From the IMG/VR virus record IMGVR_UViG_3300031523_000009, positions 1 to 23,416 of that record: a DNA stretch of 23,416 bases. One strand, given 5' to 3'. Both the position numbers and the translations under genes were made by a program. The notes below the pieces were generated by a model. The model worked only from the letters and a program-made list of their open reading frames with translations. It had not been told where the DNA came from and did not search any database. The stretch is from a virus. Shown here one piece after another: positions 8,871 to 19,108 of the stretch. The number at the start of each line of letters is the position of its first letter. Position 1 is the first letter of the stretch.

Positions 8871-9500
8871 ATGGCTATTAACTACGCACCAAGTGAATCC
8901 GCAGTGCAGGATCCAGCAACAGAGATTGCATTTCAGAACGGGGTACTACAACTGGGTTTAGTGGATAAGCCGTCAGAGGGTGGTTCATTTCAGAATGACA
9001 CAGTTGGCTCTTATAACTCAGCATTAACAGCAGCTAACATGGCTATACTTGCTAAGGTTGCATCGGAGCTATCAGCATCTAATTCAGATGTAAGCGCATC
9101 AGCCTCTGGGTTGAGTAGCCTTGAGAGTCACTTAAGTGCCAGCGAGAGTGAAGTCAGTAACACTGAAGCAGCCATAAGCGCTGGACTGTCTGAAGCTAGT
9201 AAGCTTGCAGCCGAAGTAAGTGCATCTGAAGCAGCAGATTCAGCAGCTTTAATAACTGGATTAACAACCACCACAACAACTGTTGCCTCAGGTGGCCCCG
9301 CAACATCCTCATATGACCCAGTAACTGGGGTATTAGGTTTAGGTATACCAATGGGCCCACAGGGTTCTCAGGGTATTCAAGGTATTCAAGGTATAATCGG
9401 AGTGCAAGGGGTGCGAGGTTTTACAGGAGATGACGGAGATGATGGAATCGTAGACACTTATGATCCCGGTGACCTAGCCGCTTTATTTGAATCATCATAA
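8871..9500 (+). CDS. Collagen-like tail fibre protein
   Basis: A 209-aa fibre-type protein. Residues 1-60 form an N-terminal module (MAINY at the start, then KPSEGGSFQNDTVGSYNSA) shared with the large protein at 11422. It is probably the part that attaches to the virion. Residues about 60-125 are Ser/Ala/Glu-rich with heptad-like spacing, a likely trimeric coiled coil. Residues 162-194 are eleven collagen-like Gly-X-Y triplets (GPQGSQGIQGIQG onward, then GDDGDDG). It ends in a short acidic tip. The protein is short and has no obvious receptor-binding head. It may be a stalk joined by the small proteins encoded next to it. AAGGAG precedes the ATG at good spacing. Confidence 0.8.
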   Translation: MAINYAPSESAVQDPATEIAFQNGVLQLGLVDKPSEGGSFQNDTVGSYNSALTAANMAILAKVASELSASNSDVSASASGLSSLESHLSASESEVSNTEAAISAGLSEASKLAAEVSASEAADSAALITGLTTTTTTVASGGPATSSYDPVTGVLGLGIPMGPQGSQGIQGIQGIIGVQGVRGFTGDDGDDGIVDTYDPGDLAALFESS

Positions 9501-11367: not shown

Positions 11368-11386
11368 CCACTAGCGTATTTAGTGG
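11368..11386 (+). other. Small hairpin before the 1048-aa fibre gene
   Basis: CCACTA and TAGTGG pair across a 7-base loop within the 101-base gap. No T-run follows, so it is not a typical terminator. It may influence translation of the fibre gene. The gap also has the palindrome atatcgatat near 11328. Confidence 0.35.
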
Positions 11387-11406
11387 CACACACGACATGC
11401 CTATTT

Positions 11407-11412
11407 AAGGAG
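11407..11412 (+). promoter_or_regulatory. Shine-Dalgarno sequence fixing the fibre start at 11422
   Basis: AAGGAG lies 9 bases before ATG 11422, and the protein from that ATG begins with the same MAINY module as the protein at 8871. The longer frame from GTG 11383 runs through this site and adds 13 residues unlike the family. Confidence 0.85.
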
Positions 11413-11421
11413 ACACTCTCA

Positions 11422-14400
11422 ATGGCTATTAATTACATAACACAAGAAACAGGGGCTACCGAGATACCCTTCTCAAATGGGACTGAACAGGTGGGTCTTG
11501 TCAATAAGCCATCCGAGGGTGGTTCCTTTCAGAACGATTCAGTGGGCAGTTATGCGTCAGCTACTACCTCAGCCAACTTATCACAGCTAAGCCAAGAAGC
11601 AGCACTTGCCTCTGCACAAGCTGCAGCACTTAGTGCAGCTGATGCTGAAGCATCTAGAGACCTTACATTGCTTTCAGCCGCTGGGGTTGGATCAGTGGTG
11701 ATTGCTTCGAATGCTAACGCCAATAGAGCAGAGGGTGCTCAGGCAGTGGCAGCAGCTTCCGCAGCCTCAGTTGCAGCTGACTTAGTTGAGACTACGCAGG
11801 ATACTCTGGATACAGCAGCTGATAGAGCTCAGACTAACTTAGATATGATTGCAACTGCTGCAGATAGAGTTCAGACAGGTTTAGATCGTGCTGCTATAGG
11901 TACGGATGCCTCCACAGCAACAACTAAAGCAAATGAAGCAAGTGCCTCTGCATCTGCTGCTAGTGCATCAGCTTCTGCCGCATTGGCTTCTGAGAATAAT
12001 ACGGCAGATAAGTTACCGCTGTCTGGTGGGAGTTTAACAGGTCCGGTTACAACCACCTCTACCATTGATGGTCGTGATGTTGCTACAGATGGTACTAAAC
12101 TGGACGGTGTGGCAATAGGGGCAAATAACTATACGTTACCCGCTGGGATAGCCACTGAGACCTATGTTGGTACTCAGATAAGCAACCTAGTTGACGCATC
12201 TCCAGCAACACTTAATACACTAAATGAACTAGCAGCAGCCTTAGGTGATGATGCTAACTTCTCTACTACAATGACTAACACCCTTGCGGGTAAGGTCGAT
12301 GATAGTCAGGTGTTAACAAATGTACCTGCAGGTGCAGTGTTTACTGATACTAATACCACATACACAGTGGGTGATGGTGGTTTAACTCAAGTTAACTTCA
12401 CCACAGCAGATAATACTAAGCTAGATGGTATTGAAGTAGGTGCTACAGCAGACCAAACTGCTGCTCAGTTACTTGTTGCTATTAAGACTGTTGATGGAGC
12501 AAGTAGTGGTTTAGATGCTGACTTGCTAGATGGTAATCATGCTTCTGCTTTCCTAACACCTACAGGTGATGGTTCTCAATTATCAGGTCTACCTGCTACT
12601 GGGGCAACTACAGCACAAGCAAATGAGATAACAGCTAACACGGCTAAAGTTGGAATAACTACAGCACAAGCAAATGCAATTACAGCTAACACAGCCAAAG
12701 TAACTAACTCTACCTCTGCCTCAGACCTAACATCTGGCACATTAGCAGACGCTAGATTCCCAGCCACACTACCAGCAATCAGCGGTGCTAACTTAACCAA
12801 CCTACCGATCACACCAGCAGGAACAGCAGACTTTGTTGCCTCTGGAACATTGCCTAACGGTAGCCCTGTGGTATTGAAGTCTGACGGTACAGTTGAAGCT
12901 GCTGCTCCGACTGCATCACTTGTAGCTGAAAGTATACCTGCTGGGAGTGCCGATGCGTTTGGTGTATCCGGTAATACTGGTCACGTCACATCCGCTTTTG
13001 ACTATAATACTGCAAACGTGTTTGTTGTAGCATATAAGGTAGGTTCTCTTGTTTATGTTGTAGTAGGAACAGTTTCAGGGACTTCTGTTACTTTCGGAAC
13101 TCCTGTTGTACTTAATGGGGGGGCTAACGCAGACTTCCCTAGGATAGCCTTTGACCCTAATACAGCAGGTAAATTTGTTTTAACTTACCTAGATAAAACA
13201 ACCTCCACTCCAAATGGTACTACTATAGTTGGTACAGTTTCAGGAACTTCAATAACTTTTGGAACTACTACTGCACTTAATGTATATTGCAGTCTTGCAG
13301 TTGGACTATCCTTCGACCCTAATACAACGGGGGGGATTGCATTTGTTTATCAGGATGGATCTAATGCAAGCTATGGTAAGGTAAAAACAGCTACTATTTC
13401 AGGCACTACAATAACTTTTGTAACTACTGCTACATTTAATGCAAGCTCTACTTACGAACCTCTCATAGAATTTGACCCCACTACAGCAGGTAAGTTTGTA
13501 GTAACCTATAAGGATCAAAATAACTCGCAATTTGGTACAGCAAGAGTGGGGGCACTTTCAGGGACTTCTGTTAGCTTTGGAACTGCGGTTGTATTTAATT
13601 CAGGAACTACTAACTACATGTCTTCAGCCTTCGCCCCTAATATGGCAGGCAAGTTTGTAGTTGCTTATCAGGACACTAGTAACTCAAACTATGGTGCTTT
13701 AGTAGTAGGTACAGTTTCAGGAACTAGTATTAGCTTTGGGGCTGAAGTCATCTTTGCTTCAAGCTATGTTTACTCAGGGAGTATATCTTTTGATCCTACT
13801 CAAGTAGGTAAGTTTGTTATAGGTTATGTGGATATTGGGAACAGTCAGGATGGTAAAATTGTAGTAGGGACACTTTCTGGTAATACAGCTAGCTTTACAG
13901 GCCCATCTGTATATGATACATACACTAATAGTGCATCTGTATCCTTTGATTCTAATAATTCTGGTAAGTTTATTATGGCTTACAGGGACGCATCAAGTGG
14001 CGGCAGAACCAAAGTAGGCCAGCTAGCTGCAACAGTGTACGGCCCAACAAACCTAACAGCAACCAACTTCCTAGGCACTTCAACAGCCGCCTACACTGAC
14101 ACCCAAACAGCAACCATAATGCTTCAAGGTGGAATCTCAACTAACCAAACAGGACTAACAATAGGCTCAACCTACTACGTCCAACAAGATGGAACACTAT
14201 CCACAACAGAATCATCACCGAGCGTAATCGCAGGTAAAGCCTTATCTACTACTGATCTATTCTTAGCTAACTGGTCTGATGTATACACAAATCCTAATCT
14301 ACTAGTGAAGACAGCCGACCTCACTGTATATGCAGGGGACAGCATTGTGGTAGGTGCAGGTGGCATAACCATAACATTACCTAGTTCACCATCTATAGGA

Positions 14401-14568
14401 GATAATGTGATAATTAAAGATGGCACAGGTGCAGTATCTACAACCCCATTCACAGTGGCAGGAAATGGTTCTAACATTGTATCTTCCGCTTCTTCACTAA
14501 CCTTTAACTCAGATTGGGCAGAAGTACGATTCGTATTCATTAATGCCACAATAGGATGGAGCGTATAA
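11422..14568 (+). CDS. Large tail fibre with seven propeller-like repeats
   Basis: This 1048-aa protein is a probable receptor-binding fibre. Residues 1-60 are the attachment module shared with the protein at 8871. Residues about 60-195 are Ala/Ser/Gln-rich coiled coil. Residues about 196-380 hold common fibre-shaft motifs (LPLSGGSLTGPV, TKLDGVAIG, TLNELAAALGDD, TKLDGIEVGATADQTA, GLDADLLDG). Residues 396-427 are two tandem TTAQANxITANTAKV units. Residues about 428-461 are an NSTSASDLTSGTL module, and 466-493 an ASGTLPNG module. Residues about 521-870 are seven ~50-residue repeats built on FDPNTAGKFVVAY and VGTVSGTSxSFGT, a likely seven-bladed beta-propeller. After the TNFLGTS module come a beta-rich tip (about 960-1048: ITITLPSSPSIGDNVIIKDG) and a final IGWSV. 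Confidence 0.88.
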   Translation: MAINYITQETGATEIPFSNGTEQVGLVNKPSEGGSFQNDSVGSYASATTSANLSQLSQEAALASAQAAALSAADAEASRDLTLLSAAGVGSVVIASNANANRAEGAQAVAAASAASVAADLVETTQDTLDTAADRAQTNLDMIATAADRVQTGLDRAAIGTDASTATTKANEASASASAASASASAALASENNTADKLPLSGGSLTGPVTTTSTIDGRDVATDGTKLDGVAIGANNYTLPAGIATETYVGTQISNLVDASPATLNTLNELAAALGDDANFSTTMTNTLAGKVDDSQVLTNVPAGAVFTDTNTTYTVGDGGLTQVNFTTADNTKLDGIEVGATADQTAAQLLVAIKTVDGASSGLDADLLDGNHASAFLTPTGDGSQLSGLPATGATTAQANEITANTAKVGITTAQANAITANTAKVTNSTSASDLTSGTLADARFPATLPAISGANLTNLPITPAGTADFVASGTLPNGSPVVLKSDGTVEAAAPTASLVAESIPAGSADAFGVSGNTGHVTSAFDYNTANVFVVAYKVGSLVYVVVGTVSGTSVTFGTPVVLNGGANADFPRIAFDPNTAGKFVLTYLDKTTSTPNGTTIVGTVSGTSITFGTTTALNVYCSLAVGLSFDPNTTGGIAFVYQDGSNASYGKVKTATISGTTITFVTTATFNASSTYEPLIEFDPTTAGKFVVTYKDQNNSQFGTARVGALSGTSVSFGTAVVFNSGTTNYMSSAFAPNMAGKFVVAYQDTSNSNYGALVVGTVSGTSISFGAEVIFASSYVYSGSISFDPTQVGKFVIGYVDIGNSQDGKIVVGTLSGNTASFTGPSVYDTYTNSASVSFDSNNSGKFIMAYRDASSGGRTKVGQLAATVYGPTNLTATNFLGTSTAAYTDTQTATIMLQGGISTNQTGLTIGSTYYVQQDGTLSTTESSPSVIAGKALSTTDLFLANWSDVYTNPNLLVKTADLTVYAGDSIVVGAGGITITLPSSPSIGDNVIIKDGTGAVSTTPFTVAGNGSNIVSSASSLTFNSDWAEVRFVFINATIGWSV
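12990..14030 (+). repeat. Seven ~50-codon propeller repeats in the first fibre
   Basis: Seven units each follow the pattern SFDPNTxGKFVxxYxD, NSxYG, VGTVSGTSxxFG, VxFN. The last unit stops at KVGQLA and lacks the SGT-FG part. This suits ring closure by an N-terminal strand in a seven-bladed propeller. Units are similar but not identical at the DNA level. Confidence 0.85.
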
Positions 14569-14569
14569 C

Positions 14570-17359
14570 ATGTCAAATTTAAAAGATATACTAAACCCCA
14601 CAGTAGCAACAGGATCAGCAGACTTCATTGCTAGTGGCACATTACCTAACGGTGCTCCTGTAGTATTGAAGTCTGACGGTACAGTTGAAGCTGCTGCTCT
14701 GGTTACAGCAGCAATAGCTGAAAGTATACCTGCTGGTGCTGAAGCGGTATTTCATACAGGTGAAGTACAGTTCACATCAACAGTATTCGACCCTAACAAT
14801 GCAAATAAGTTTGTCACGGCTTATCAGGATTATGGTAATTTAGGTTACGGCACAGCAGTAGTAGGGACTGTATCTGGCACTTCTATTACGTTCGGAACTG
14901 AAGTTGTGTTTAATGCAGGTATGACAAACCACACCTTTGCATCTTTTGACCCTAATACAGCTGGTAAGTTTGTTGTGGCTTATAAGGATAGTGGTAACTC
15001 CCACTACGGAACGGTAATAGTAGGAACACTTTCAGGAACTACTTTAACCTTTGGAACCGAAGTTGTATTTAATTCAGGTAATTCAAGTGACCCATCAGTG
15101 GCATTTGATCCTAATACAGCAGGTAAGTTTGTTGTATCCTATATGTATAGTAGTACGGGATATTCTAAGGTAGGGACACTTTCAGGAACCTCTGCTACCT
15201 TTGGAACTGCTGCTGCGTTTAATTCAGGGGCTATCTCAGACACTTCAATGGCCTTTGACCCTAACACAGCAGGTAAGTTTGTTGTATCTTATAATGATCA
15301 TGCTAATTCATATTATGGTACAGCTATAGTTGGAACAGTTTCGGGTACTTCTGTTAGCTTTGGAACTGAAGCTGTATTTAGCTCCGATAGTAGCACTACT
15401 GATCCTAGATTTGCATTTGACCCCAACAACGCAGGTAAGTTTGTTATAGCCTATTCTTATGGGAATGCAAGCATAGGTTCAGTTAAATTAGGTACAGTTT
15501 CTGGTACTTCTGTTAGCTTTGGGACTGAAGTTATATTTAATACAGGATCGGGAGGAGGTGCATCTAGGATCAGTATAGCCTTTAATCCTAATACTGCAAA
15601 TAAGTTCGTCATGGCTTATCAGGATTATGGTACTGCAAGCGGTATAGCAGTAGTAGGTACAGTTTCAGGAACTACTATTAGCCTTGGGACTAATATTGTA
15701 TTTAATCCGTCTTTTTCAAGCCACACCTCAATATCCTTTGATCCTAATACCGCAGGTAAGTTTGTTATAGCTTATACAGATTCTGGTAACTCAAGCTCTG
15801 GCACCGCTATAGTAGGCCAACTAGCATTACCAGCTACCTCAAACCTAACATCCACCAACTTCCTAGGCACTTCAAATGCCACATACACAGATACCCAAAC
15901 AGCAACAGTAATGCTCCAAGGTGGTGTATCTGATAACCAGACAGGACTCACAATAGGCTCAACCTACTACGTTCAACCTGACGGCACTCTAGCAACATCA
16001 GCAGGAACACCAAGTGTAGAAGCTGGTAAGGCATTATCAGCAACCTCTCTATTGCTCAGTGACACAGCAGACCCCGCAGTAGCTTTGAACACAGCTAAGG
16101 TAACCAACTCTACCTCTGCCTCTGACCTAACATCAGGCACATTACCAGACGCTAGATTCCCAGCTACTTTACCTGCTATCAGTGGAGCTAACCTAACCAA
16201 CCTGCCTGCTTCGGCTAGTGACTTCACATCTATCACTGAAGGTTCTAACACAGGTTATGGCACTAGCGAAAGATCAGCCAACCCTAACAACTATGGGGAT
16301 ATTGGTAATCTCGCTACTGATTTAAGCTATAGTCAGGGTTCATCCACGACTAGAGGGGCCACGGGTGAGTATTCTACTGCTCTAGGTAGGAATACGATTG
16401 CAAGTGGTCTTAATTCATTCACTACGGGTGTTTCCAACACGGCAAGTGGTAACTACTCCATTGCTATGGGTGGTAATAGTGAGGCAAGCGCCAACTATGC
16501 CTTTGTTTTTGGTGAATACTCATATGCGAGTGGTCTCGCATCTTTTGCTGTAGGCACTGAGGTAGAGGCAATTGGTACAAATTCTGTTGCTTTGGGCTTC
16601 CATACCATCGCAAAAGGTAACAACTCTGTTGCCCTCAATTACGATACTACTGCGGCTGGCATTTACTCCACAGCGATGGGTAAATTTGGTGGTGTAGGTA
16701 CTGCGGGTACTACACTCCTAGGTGTGGCTTTTGGTGCATCAGATCCGGGAAATATAAAATCAACTTCAACAGACACTAACTTAGTATTCAAAGTGTCTAC
16801 CGCTGGTGATGGTTATTTTGATGGTGTTGCTGACTCCGCTGCTGCCGACTATGCAGAGTATTTTGAAAGTGCGGATGGCTCAGAGCTAGAAAGAGGTTAC
16901 TTTGTTTCATTTGCTCAAGGCTCCGAGTGTGTCGAGTATGGAAACAGTGAGCTAGTGGGCATAGTATCTGCTGCCCCTGCTGTAGTAGGTGATAGTCAAT
17001 CTCTACATTATAAAGGTAAGTACCAGAAAGATGAATTTGGTGCATACATTAGAGAGCCTGTAAAACTTTATGACGATGACGGTGTTTACACACACACAGA
17101 AATACACAAAGTTCTTTCAGAGGACTTTGACCCAACCCAAGAATACCTACCAAGAAGTGAGAGACCTGAATGGAGTCCTATTGGATTACTGGGCAAACTT
17201 TGGGTTCATTTAGCGACTGGCGAGACCATCGTTACTGGGGATTACGTTACCTCAGATAGTGAAGGAAAGGCTATCAAGTGTCTACGGGCTGATATTGATT
17301 CCTTTAGGGTTATTAGCATCAATAGTGAGCGTAATTTAGTTAGAGTGTTATACAAGTAA
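14570..17359 (+). CDS. Propeller/YadA-like fibre with Peptidase_G2 chaperone end
   Basis: A 929-aa probable receptor-binding fibre or tailspike. Residues about 17-46 are an ASGTLPNG module near-identical in DNA to part of the upstream gene. Residues about 66-420 are seven propeller-like repeats ending in VGQLA. Residues about 424-494 are the TNFLGTS to YYVQPDGT module, and 513-548 the NSTSASDLTSGTL module. Residues 599-710 are eight 14-residue YadA-head-like repeats (pattern GxxSxAxGxxxxAx). The C-terminus from Asp760 (DYAEYFESADG, GIVSAAPAVVGDS, YIPRSERPEW-like YLPRSERPEWSPIGLLGKL, ending LVRVLYK) matches the Peptidase_G2 intramolecular chaperone known from phi29-type neck appendages, which assists trimer folding and then cuts itself off. 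GGAG lies 8 bases before the ATG, and only one base separates it from the previous stop. The short N-terminus lacks the MAINY module, so it may attach differently. Confidence 0.88.
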   Translation: MSNLKDILNPTVATGSADFIASGTLPNGAPVVLKSDGTVEAAALVTAAIAESIPAGAEAVFHTGEVQFTSTVFDPNNANKFVTAYQDYGNLGYGTAVVGTVSGTSITFGTEVVFNAGMTNHTFASFDPNTAGKFVVAYKDSGNSHYGTVIVGTLSGTTLTFGTEVVFNSGNSSDPSVAFDPNTAGKFVVSYMYSSTGYSKVGTLSGTSATFGTAAAFNSGAISDTSMAFDPNTAGKFVVSYNDHANSYYGTAIVGTVSGTSVSFGTEAVFSSDSSTTDPRFAFDPNNAGKFVIAYSYGNASIGSVKLGTVSGTSVSFGTEVIFNTGSGGGASRISIAFNPNTANKFVMAYQDYGTASGIAVVGTVSGTTISLGTNIVFNPSFSSHTSISFDPNTAGKFVIAYTDSGNSSSGTAIVGQLALPATSNLTSTNFLGTSNATYTDTQTATVMLQGGVSDNQTGLTIGSTYYVQPDGTLATSAGTPSVEAGKALSATSLLLSDTADPAVALNTAKVTNSTSASDLTSGTLPDARFPATLPAISGANLTNLPASASDFTSITEGSNTGYGTSERSANPNNYGDIGNLATDLSYSQGSSTTRGATGEYSTALGRNTIASGLNSFTTGVSNTASGNYSIAMGGNSEASANYAFVFGEYSYASGLASFAVGTEVEAIGTNSVALGFHTIAKGNNSVALNYDTTAAGIYSTAMGKFGGVGTAGTTLLGVAFGASDPGNIKSTSTDTNLVFKVSTAGDGYFDGVADSAAADYAEYFESADGSELERGYFVSFAQGSECVEYGNSELVGIVSAAPAVVGDSQSLHYKGKYQKDEFGAYIREPVKLYDDDGVYTHTEIHKVLSEDFDPTQEYLPRSERPEWSPIGLLGKLWVHLATGETIVTGDYVTSDSEGKAIKCLRADIDSFRVISINSERNLVRVLYK
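14765..15829 (+). repeat. Seven ~50-codon propeller repeats in the second fibre
   Basis: Seven units share the consensus of the upstream gene (FDPNTAGKFVVxY, VGTVSGTSxxFGTEVVFN) and are more regular. The seventh again ends at IVGQLA. Short stretches such as gcaggtaagtttgttgta are identical between units, which would permit recombination. Confidence 0.88.
16364..16699 (+). repeat. Eight YadA-head-like 14-residue repeats
   Basis: Eight consecutive 14-codon units code for residues 599-710, for example GEYSTALGRNTIAS, GNYSIAMGGNSEAS and GTNSVALGFHTIAK. The small residue-Ala-hydrophobic-Gly spacing is that of left-handed trimeric beta-rolls in bacterial trimeric autotransporter adhesins. Confidence 0.85.
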
Positions 17360-17877: not shown

Positions 17878-18305
17878 CCGAACTAGCTATAGCCAATGCA
17901 GCATTTGGTGTCATTAAGCAGGCATTGTCTAATGGCAAAGAATTACTAGATGCAGGTGATGCAGTCGGTAAATACTTCAAGGCTGAGAACGACATAGCCA
18001 AAGAAGTAGCTACTAAGGGTCGTGGGTCAGCACTTGAAGCTTACCAAGCCCAACAGCAGTTAAGAAAGCAAGAGGATGAACTCAAGTACATGCTCAACAA
18101 ACAAGGACTCTTAGGCTACGCTAACTTCATACAGTTTAAAGCTGAGTGGGCCAGAGATCAGAAGGAACAAGTACGCTTAGAAGCCCGAAGGAAACACCAA
18201 CGGGCTAAAGCACTGGAAGAAAACATAACTATTGGCCTCAAGGTTGGTGGTACACTATTACTAATAATGGCGGCACTCTTTGGTGTGGCCCTTTACTTGA
18301 GATGA
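17871..18305 (+). CDS. Membrane-anchored coiled-coil protein
   Basis: A 144-aa protein. Residues 1-60 are amphipathic helix (LAELAIANAAFGVIKQALSN, then LLDAGDAVGKYFKAEND). Residues about 60-115 are strongly charged coiled coil with many Gln, Lys, Arg and Glu. Residues about 119-142 are a single hydrophobic segment (IGLKVGGTLLLIMAALFGVA) ending in YLR. No Cys or lipobox is present, so it is not a typical spanin lipoprotein. Position before two further membrane proteins suggests the lysis or membrane module, but I also recall similar sequences annotated as phage structural proteins of unknown role. It starts at the ATG overlapping the previous gene and ends in ATGA with the next. Confidence 0.78.
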   Translation: MLAELAIANAAFGVIKQALSNGKELLDAGDAVGKYFKAENDIAKEVATKGRGSALEAYQAQQQLRKQEDELKYMLNKQGLLGYANFIQFKAEWARDQKEQVRLEARRKHQRAKALEENITIGLKVGGTLLLIMAALFGVALYLR

Positions 18306-18589
18306 CTATTATGGATGATGTTAATGGACGATTTGACCGGCTAGAGACTAAGATAGATAAGCTGTCGGATGCAATGATCACACTGATCCAGCATGATACA
18401 AAGATTGATGGGTTAGTCGCCCACAACAACACACAAGACAATCGACTCAATAAATACTCGGAAGCCTTAGATGACCATGCAGTTAAACTTGCAACAGTCG
18501 CCAAGTCCAGTGGTGCTAATGAGTGGTTTGTCAGATTACTTATAGCTGCACTTGTAACAGGTGTGGTATTTATGATGCGTTCTACATGA
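18302..18589 (+). CDS. XhlA-like small coiled-coil membrane protein
   Basis: A 95-aa protein. Residues about 4-70 form a coiled coil (DDVNGRFDRLETKIDKLSDA and HDTKIDGLVAHNNTQDNRL). Residues about 76-92 are one hydrophobic segment (FVRLLIAALVTGVVFMM). Coiled coil plus a single C-terminal membrane helix in under 100 residues is the XhlA-type arrangement, known from phage and prophage lysis cassettes. The starts at 18302 and 18311 are both possible; 18302 is favoured by its ATGA overlap with the previous stop. Its own end overlaps the next start in the same way. Confidence 0.7.
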   Translation: MTIMDDVNGRFDRLETKIDKLSDAMITLIQHDTKIDGLVAHNNTQDNRLNKYSEALDDHAVKLATVAKSSGANEWFVRLLIAALVTGVVFMMRST

Positions 18590-18673: not shown

Positions 18674-19108
18674 ATGTTTGGATTACCAATGGAAATGATC
18701 ACAATGATTCTAAGTGTCGTGGGTGGCGCTGTGATGAAGATGTGGTCCCAGTCACAAGCTGATAAGGCTGAGCAACAGAAAGCCCTTATACAGCAATTCT
18801 CGGCCTCTGAGGACAGTGTTCAGAACGCACGTAACTATCAGAACCCTAATGCCCAATGGATCCGTAGATTCCTAGTAGTTTCCTTTATGGGAATGGCTAT
18901 GTTCATACTGATTGCACCTATCCTCAACCTACCTACGGTAGTACCTGTGGAAGTGACATCTGGGTTTAAGTTCTTGTTCTTAGATTTCACAACAACAGTA
19001 ACCGAATGGGTTACCTTAGAAGGTATGGTAACACCTGAGTGGCTACCTCATGCAATAATGTCAGTGGTCGGTATGTACTTCGGTCAGTCACTCGTATCAA
19101 GAAAATAA
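18674..19108 (+). CDS. Holin-like protein with three membrane segments
   Basis: A 144-aa protein with three hydrophobic stretches: about residues 5-22 (MEMITMILSVVGGAVMKM), 54-75 (FLVVSFMGMAMFILIAPIL) and 122-140 (PEWLPHAIMSVVGMYFGQS). A Gln/Lys-rich linker lies between the first two, and WIRRFL precedes the second. This matches the 3-TM holin-like family known from gene transfer agents and phages. The role would be timed permeabilisation of the inner membrane so that endolysin reaches the wall. No endolysin gene is seen in the window. A structural membrane protein is the alternative. It follows an XhlA-like gene, which supports the lysis assignment. Confidence 0.6.
   Translation: MFGLPMEMITMILSVVGGAVMKMWSQSQADKAEQQKALIQQFSASEDSVQNARNYQNPNAQWIRRFLVVSFMGMAMFILIAPILNLPTVVPVEVTSGFKFLFLDFTTTVTEWVTLEGMVTPEWLPHAIMSVVGMYFGQSLVSRK

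Follow-up and report, generated by a model that had tools for sequence, protein, structure and literature searches.

The adjacent tail-fibre genes P0001 and P0002 very likely each encode a seven-bladed, velcro-closed beta-propeller. Both genes lie in a 23.4 kb record of a marine bacterial virus, and the whole stretch analysed is referred to here as the window. The best explanation as a whole, to which we give a probability of roughly 0.7, is that the closed seven-bladed propeller is the exchangeable host-contact part of the fibres and has been multiplied in marine tailed phages. Propeller receptor-binding proteins are already known in phages, such as phi11 gp45 and PhiKZ gp131C, and it is this sequence family that is uncatalogued.

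Gene Models and Layout of the Two Modules

P0001 (11422-14568, + strand) was assigned as an anchored tail fibre with an N-terminal anchor, a stalk, a propeller module and a C-terminal domain. The mechanical ORF spans 11383-14568 and opens at a GTG at 11383; the true start is probably the ATG at 11422 (MAINY...), judging by similarity to the protein at 8871, which starts in the same way. The anchor-like N-terminal segment of P0001 (11425-11620, + strand) showed 59% identity over 68 residues to the N-terminus of that protein, and may serve to anchor the fibre. The protein itself, encoded at 8871-9500, is a second, shorter fibre-like protein that combines this N-terminal anchor with collagen-like GxY repeats. 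The stalk of P0001 (11998-12777, + strand) matched phage tail-fibre PHROGs (phrog_24456, E 1.2e-43, residues 254-371) and also Lauvirus and cyanophage fibres. It is followed on the same strand by the conserved propeller N-flank FVASGTLPNGSPVVLKSDGTVEAAA (12832-12906), the closing (velcro) strand AESIPAGSADAF (12925-12960), which was placed by aligning it by eye with the final strand of the units, the seven propeller units (12997-14028, from the first FD at residue 539 to the VGQLA end at residue 882), and the conserved C-flank (14047-14271). The C-terminal domain (14281-14565, + strand) is the one that in relatives closes the ORF upstream of a propeller row.

P0002 (14570-17359, + strand) was predicted to consist of a propeller module, a linker, a YadA-like head and a self-cleaving chaperone. 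Its module comprises, all on the + strand, the conserved N-flank FIASGTLPNGAPVVLKSDGTVEAAA (14624-14698), the closing strand AESIPAGAEAVF (14717-14752), which aligns with the final strand of the units and was predicted to form a strand there, the seven units (14771-15826, from the first FD at residue 73 to the VGQLA end at residue 419) and the conserved C-flank (15836-16069). The DNA of the linker (16088-16206, + strand) is 87% identical to P0001 12688-12806 (repeat family D10). YadA-like trimeric head repeats follow at 16346-16687 on the + strand (PF05658, E 1.4e-16; PDB 7o23 aligned at residues 593-706), and then a Peptidase_G2 intramolecular chaperone at 16793-17326 on the + strand (PF11962, E 1.5e-32). 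PDB entry 3gqh, the released fragment of phi29 gp12, aligned to P0002 from D760 (codon at 16847), and the C-terminus matched the phi29 gp12-type Peptidase_G2 family, a match that takes in the DxAEYFE segment of the cleavage site. We infer that P0002 would cleave itself between residues 759 and 760.

Behind the fibre genes, two small proteins with hydrophobic stretches are encoded at 18302-18589 and 18674-19108. The first gave a sub-threshold XhlA match, and both are possible lysis genes.

Seven Repeat Units and the Predicted Fold

The unit is about 53 residues long, with the family consensus SVAFDPNTANKFVVAYRDAGNSNYGTAIVGTVSGTSISFGSEVVFNSG. Units begin at residues 539, 590, 644, 697, 750, 803 and 855 of P0001, and at residues 73, 126, 179, 229, 283, 338 and 390 of P0002. 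The unit HMM recognised seven units per protein, of which units 1 to 6 were complete and unit 7 ended at HMM position 33-34 of 53, where VGQLA forms the end of the seventh unit in both proteins. Scores were 65-91 bits for complete window units and 24-51 bits for the truncated seventh one, and none of 1000 shuffled copies scored above 5.0 bits; since the HMM was built from the window units themselves, these scores are not independent, while counts in other viruses are. Identity between blades was 32-65%. The start positions and the HMM thus bear out an earlier sequence-only reading of this DNA, which had claimed exactly seven units in each fibre protein and an incomplete seventh unit ending in VGQLA in both.

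AlphaFold2 models of both modules were made from an alignment of 44 modules, and the fold was judged from predicted secondary structure, confidence and fold matches. The P0002 module reached a mean pLDDT of 89.0 and a pTM of 0.81, with blades at about 97, and the P0001 module a mean pLDDT of 84.4 and a pTM of 0.77, with blades mostly at 90-97. In both, the blades were confidently predicted to be four-stranded. In Foldseek searches against the PDB, the P0002 model matched Sec12, Sqt1, ARPC1 and G-beta (E from 1.2e-8, target TM up to 0.70). The P0001 model additionally matched Photorhabdus PLL2 and PHL (target TM 0.74-0.78) and sialidases. Sec12, ARPC1 and G-beta are seven-bladed, and sialidases are six-bladed.

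The strand absent from blade 7 occurs N-terminal to blade 1 (AESIPAGxxxAF), where the unit HMM picked up a partial unit in 32 homologues. Sequence and models together strongly support a ring closure of the ordinary "3+1 velcro" type, in which the N-terminal strand would complete blade 7. The sequence-only reading had proposed just this, a seven-bladed ring that an N-terminal strand closes, and the predicted structures, the fold searches and the number of blades in related modules all agreed with it; the models were confident propellers, neither a beta-helix nor separate Ig domains. The region start given earlier, 12990, took in the units of P0001 and left out the closing strand.

Blade Number across Relatives

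IMG/VR scans yielded 29 and 79 loci, partly on the same contigs; in one scan, 156 stretches were confirmed and the best 80 of the 156 were kept. Together with two MAG loci and the window, the IMG/VR loci made up a search set of 104 sequences. Exactly seven units were found in 209 modules (155 distinct) within this set, and ORFs with 14 or 28 units consisted of two or four sevens. The distance from unit 1 to the C-flank, measured with a C-flank HMM and a score filter, had a median of 347 in seven-unit modules, with 185 of 193 lying within 310-380. Modules called with five or six units measured 334-364, apart from one outlier. As these have the length of seven-blade modules, a weak unit was missed there, and a variable blade count was rejected. 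A few divergent ORFs had too few recognised units for counting. No convincing six- or eight-bladed members were found among the 104 sequences searched, and homologues with a variable count unable to close a ring, which would have spoken against the propeller, did not appear. The seven-blade count and the closure are strongly supported.

Comparison with Known Families and Propellers

No match to the propeller was obtained in NCBIfam, and no convincing one in Pfam or among PDB sequences. WD40 families and sialidase/BNR families gave no match in the Pfam searches, and PHROGs gave only marginal, unnamed matches. PRY, CPSase_sm_chain, Me-amine-dh_L and Cyclophil_like2 were matched in Pfam by single A1 members and were set aside as unrelated families matching a repetitive protein. 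For PRY and the window module, no single stretch passed alone and the score was under the curated cut-off. Weak phmmer matches to antibody light chains (E of at least 0.02) were disregarded. The earlier remark that the repeat family could not be recognised by name holds, as the propeller falls into no sequence family of Pfam, NCBIfam or the PDB.

In open-access papers, this propeller family was not found; other phage propellers (phi11, PRD1 P2, PhiKZ gp131C and endosialidases) and eCIS propeller lectins were. According to PMC4901313, gp45 of Staphylococcus phage phi11 is a trimeric receptor-binding protein with a propeller, closure by an N-terminal (velcro) strand and a proposed sugar site. 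P0001 and P0002 resemble it in having an N-terminal-strand-closed propeller in a phage fibre-type protein; however, phi11 gp45 has five blades, one copy and a Gram-positive host, and shows no sequence match. The same paper describes Pseudomonas phage PhiKZ gp131C (PDB 4GBF) as a seven-bladed propeller at the baseplate edge, suspected of receptor binding or enzymatic action. In contrast to the window proteins, it is a myophage baseplate protein; it gave no PDB sequence match and was absent among the 50 fold matches listed. Rows of propellers and their exchange are a feature here, and are not described for gp131C in the passage on it in PMC4901313. Photorhabdus PLL/PHL lectins, which bind sugars between the blades (PMC6943638), share the seven-bladed fold (PLL2 against the P0001 model, target TM 0.78), but are secreted bacterial lectins with about 12% identity and Trp-based sites, and gave no PDB sequence match. 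Beta-propeller lectins have also been predicted on the phage-like tail fibres of eCIS for target binding (PMC12923769); these belong to bacterial injection systems with collagen shafts and are likened to our proteins by description. The propellers of the window lie in tail-fibre genes, a location expected of phage propeller receptor-binding proteins.

Related Viruses and a Plausible Host

The nearest named relative of the window's portal was that of Roseobacter phage CRP-7 (48%). In tblastn against named phages, only Lentibacter phage vB_LenP_ICBM2 (weak) and one C-flank in Marine virus AG-345-O18 were detected. ICBM2 gp49, within the tail-fibre module, is a distant cultured propeller relative (E 4.8e-26 with the unit HMM; 28% identical to a homologue along 84% of the latter), but has a different N-terminus, is annotated as hypothetical and contains about five units recognised by the HMM. 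Given the CRP-7 portal and the occurrence of gp49 in a Lentibacter phage, a roseobacter host for the window virus is plausible on sequence grounds. Bacterial genome contigs searched with the window protein gave no match, and those searched with alignment A3 gave only two, both MAG contigs (L033 and L034; Prolixibacteraceae and Acidimicrobiaceae). As L034 resembles the virus locus L032, these MAG contigs may be viral sequence binned with a bacterium.

Sibling contigs, with portals 83-98% identical to that of the window, had other fibre contents wherever the sequence reached the locus. In L123 the slot held a 437-aa fibre and, behind it, several small proteins in a row; in L147 it held a 1260-aa fibre. 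No propeller units were detected in any sibling contig, several of which stop so early that propellers farther downstream could have been missed. The row in L123 (10713-13666) consists of proteins of about 125-200 residues behind an anchored fibre, and the C-terminal tails of several are alike, II(V)TEI(K/A/Q)G.

Exchange and Rows of Propellers

Between sibling contigs of propeller loci overall, identity was 92-98% until about 100 bp before the propeller, 35-50% for the propellers and 90-94% afterwards. Contigs L061 and L009 were 98.4% identical over 1650 bp, until about 115 bp before the first core; cores one and two differ between them, and from the end of the second core they are again 90.5% identical over 825 bp. 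L088 and L077 showed 95.2% identity over 1994 bp, a core with 35% amino-acid identity and then 94.4% over 356 bp. For L106 and L099 the values were 91.8% over 3941 bp, about 50% in the core and then 94.4% over 354 bp. Some of these exchanges could be artefacts of metagenome mis-assembly at conserved flanks. In 18 module pairs, the C-flank pS was below 0.2 while the core pS exceeded 0.5, and only 11 of the 113 modules having a paralogue were closer to a same-locus paralogue than to an other-locus module. Between P0001 and P0002, dS was 0.26 in the N-flank, 0.74 in the C-flank and 1.0 in the core. As dS in the flanks lies below that in the core, the core divergence is read at least partly as recombination and not as proof of positive selection. 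Judged by these sequence comparisons, the propeller is an exchangeable cassette of marine viruses.

Loci carried 1 to 6 modules. Many modules are stand-alone ORFs of about 480-520 residues, which start like MSNLSxLLPxGG and come after an ORF ending in a P0001-type C-terminal domain. The window propellers are instead built into the anchored fibre (P0001) and the YadA-head/chaperone protein (P0002); the combination of propeller, YadA-like head and self-cleaving chaperone was found in no other propeller ORF, nor in 80 chaperone loci. One ORF of 2562 aa in L018 encodes four seven-bladed propellers in one polypeptide, and a fifth lies in a later ORF. Since relatives carry 1 to 6 modules, the two in the window are incidental. 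A "dual receptor-binding system" had been suggested on the basis of the two neighbouring modules; fibre locus, exchange and loop variability fit receptor binding, but "dual" is nothing special. It is conceivable, though rather speculative, that the stand-alone genes form a combinatorial adhesin set, in which different propellers would vie for a single fibre socket, or stack upon it, by means of the MSNLSxLLPxGG N-terminus and the flanks, giving mixed or multiple receptor specificities per genome, refreshed by cassette exchange.

Variable Loops and Alternative Explanations

Across 25 pairs of close modules (70-97% identity), the share of differing residues was 31% in the B-C loop and 33% in the D-A loop, compared with 10-17% in strands, A-B turns and C-D turns. 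Substitutions in these two loops, which share one face of a propeller, were therefore 2-3 times as frequent as elsewhere. Entropy over 930 units agreed for the B-C loop; D-A variation was mostly in unaligned insertions. Loop variability alone fits relaxed constraint or immune-free drift too. A propeller that is both exchanged and variable in its loops is as expected of a receptor-binding domain, and the modules are likely receptor-binding cassettes. The ligand would probably be a glycan, although no Trp-rich lectin site stood out in the unit (Trp was rare at every unit position), and neither did a catalytic motif.

The propeller could instead be a structural spacer or assembly hub; another part, such as the P0001 C-terminal domain or the YadA-like head in P0002, would then touch the host. 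WD40 rings are often protein-protein scaffolds, the best PDB matches of P0002 were WD40 scaffolds, and neither propeller sits at a tip, that of P0001 being central and that of P0002 lying in the N-terminal half. However, a scaffold should be conserved together with its neighbours, whereas here the neighbours are conserved and the propeller differs between siblings, with the variation placed in loops of one face; we consider a spacer or hub unlikely. That the propeller is a sialidase or another glycan-cleaving enzyme stripping a surface polymer from the host is more doubtful still. Sialidases were among the Foldseek matches, and phage endosialidases are trimeric propeller spikes (PMC4901313). 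But sialidases are six-bladed with Asp boxes, while the modules have seven units without an Asp box in the unit consensus, no sialidase/BNR family was matched, and the conserved positions recur in every blade, as structural residues do. A sialidase-like enzyme was rejected for its blade number and the missing Asp boxes.

That the repeats form no ring but an open beta-solenoid or a string of Ig-like domains has hardly any chance of being correct. The fold evidence consists of secondary structure and fold matches rather than coordinates, and a beta unit of about 53 residues would by itself also suit other beta repeats. Against this stand the count of seven fixed across the 209 modules, the constant module length, the truncated seventh unit whose missing strand lies at the opposite terminus, and the very high model confidence with seven-bladed fold matches. 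Open repeats were rejected by the fixed count, the velcro strand and the model.

Proposed Role of the Propellers

In the favoured explanation, the exchangeable host-contact propeller, each gene would encode one closed ring whose blades are four-stranded meanders, blade 7 being completed by the N-terminal strand. Lying between two conserved flanks in the tail-fibre locus, the propeller would be the host-contact part; the flanks may hold it on the fibre, and the B-C and D-A loops, variable and located on one face, may bind a cell-surface ligand, probably a glycan. P0001 would be the anchored fibre. P0002 may be a second fibre or a distal piece, depending on how it attaches, and its YadA-like head and self-cleaving chaperone presumably bring about trimerisation. 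By recombining within or close to the flanks, marine tailed phages would exchange and multiply propellers, resulting in rows of 1 to 6 different ones.

Host recognition by marine phages is mostly unannotated. An exchangeable seven-bladed module with conserved flanks can be used to flag probable receptor-binding genes in sequence data from ocean viruses, and makes specificity change in these phages testable. The exchange of propellers most likely serves the gripping of different host surfaces.
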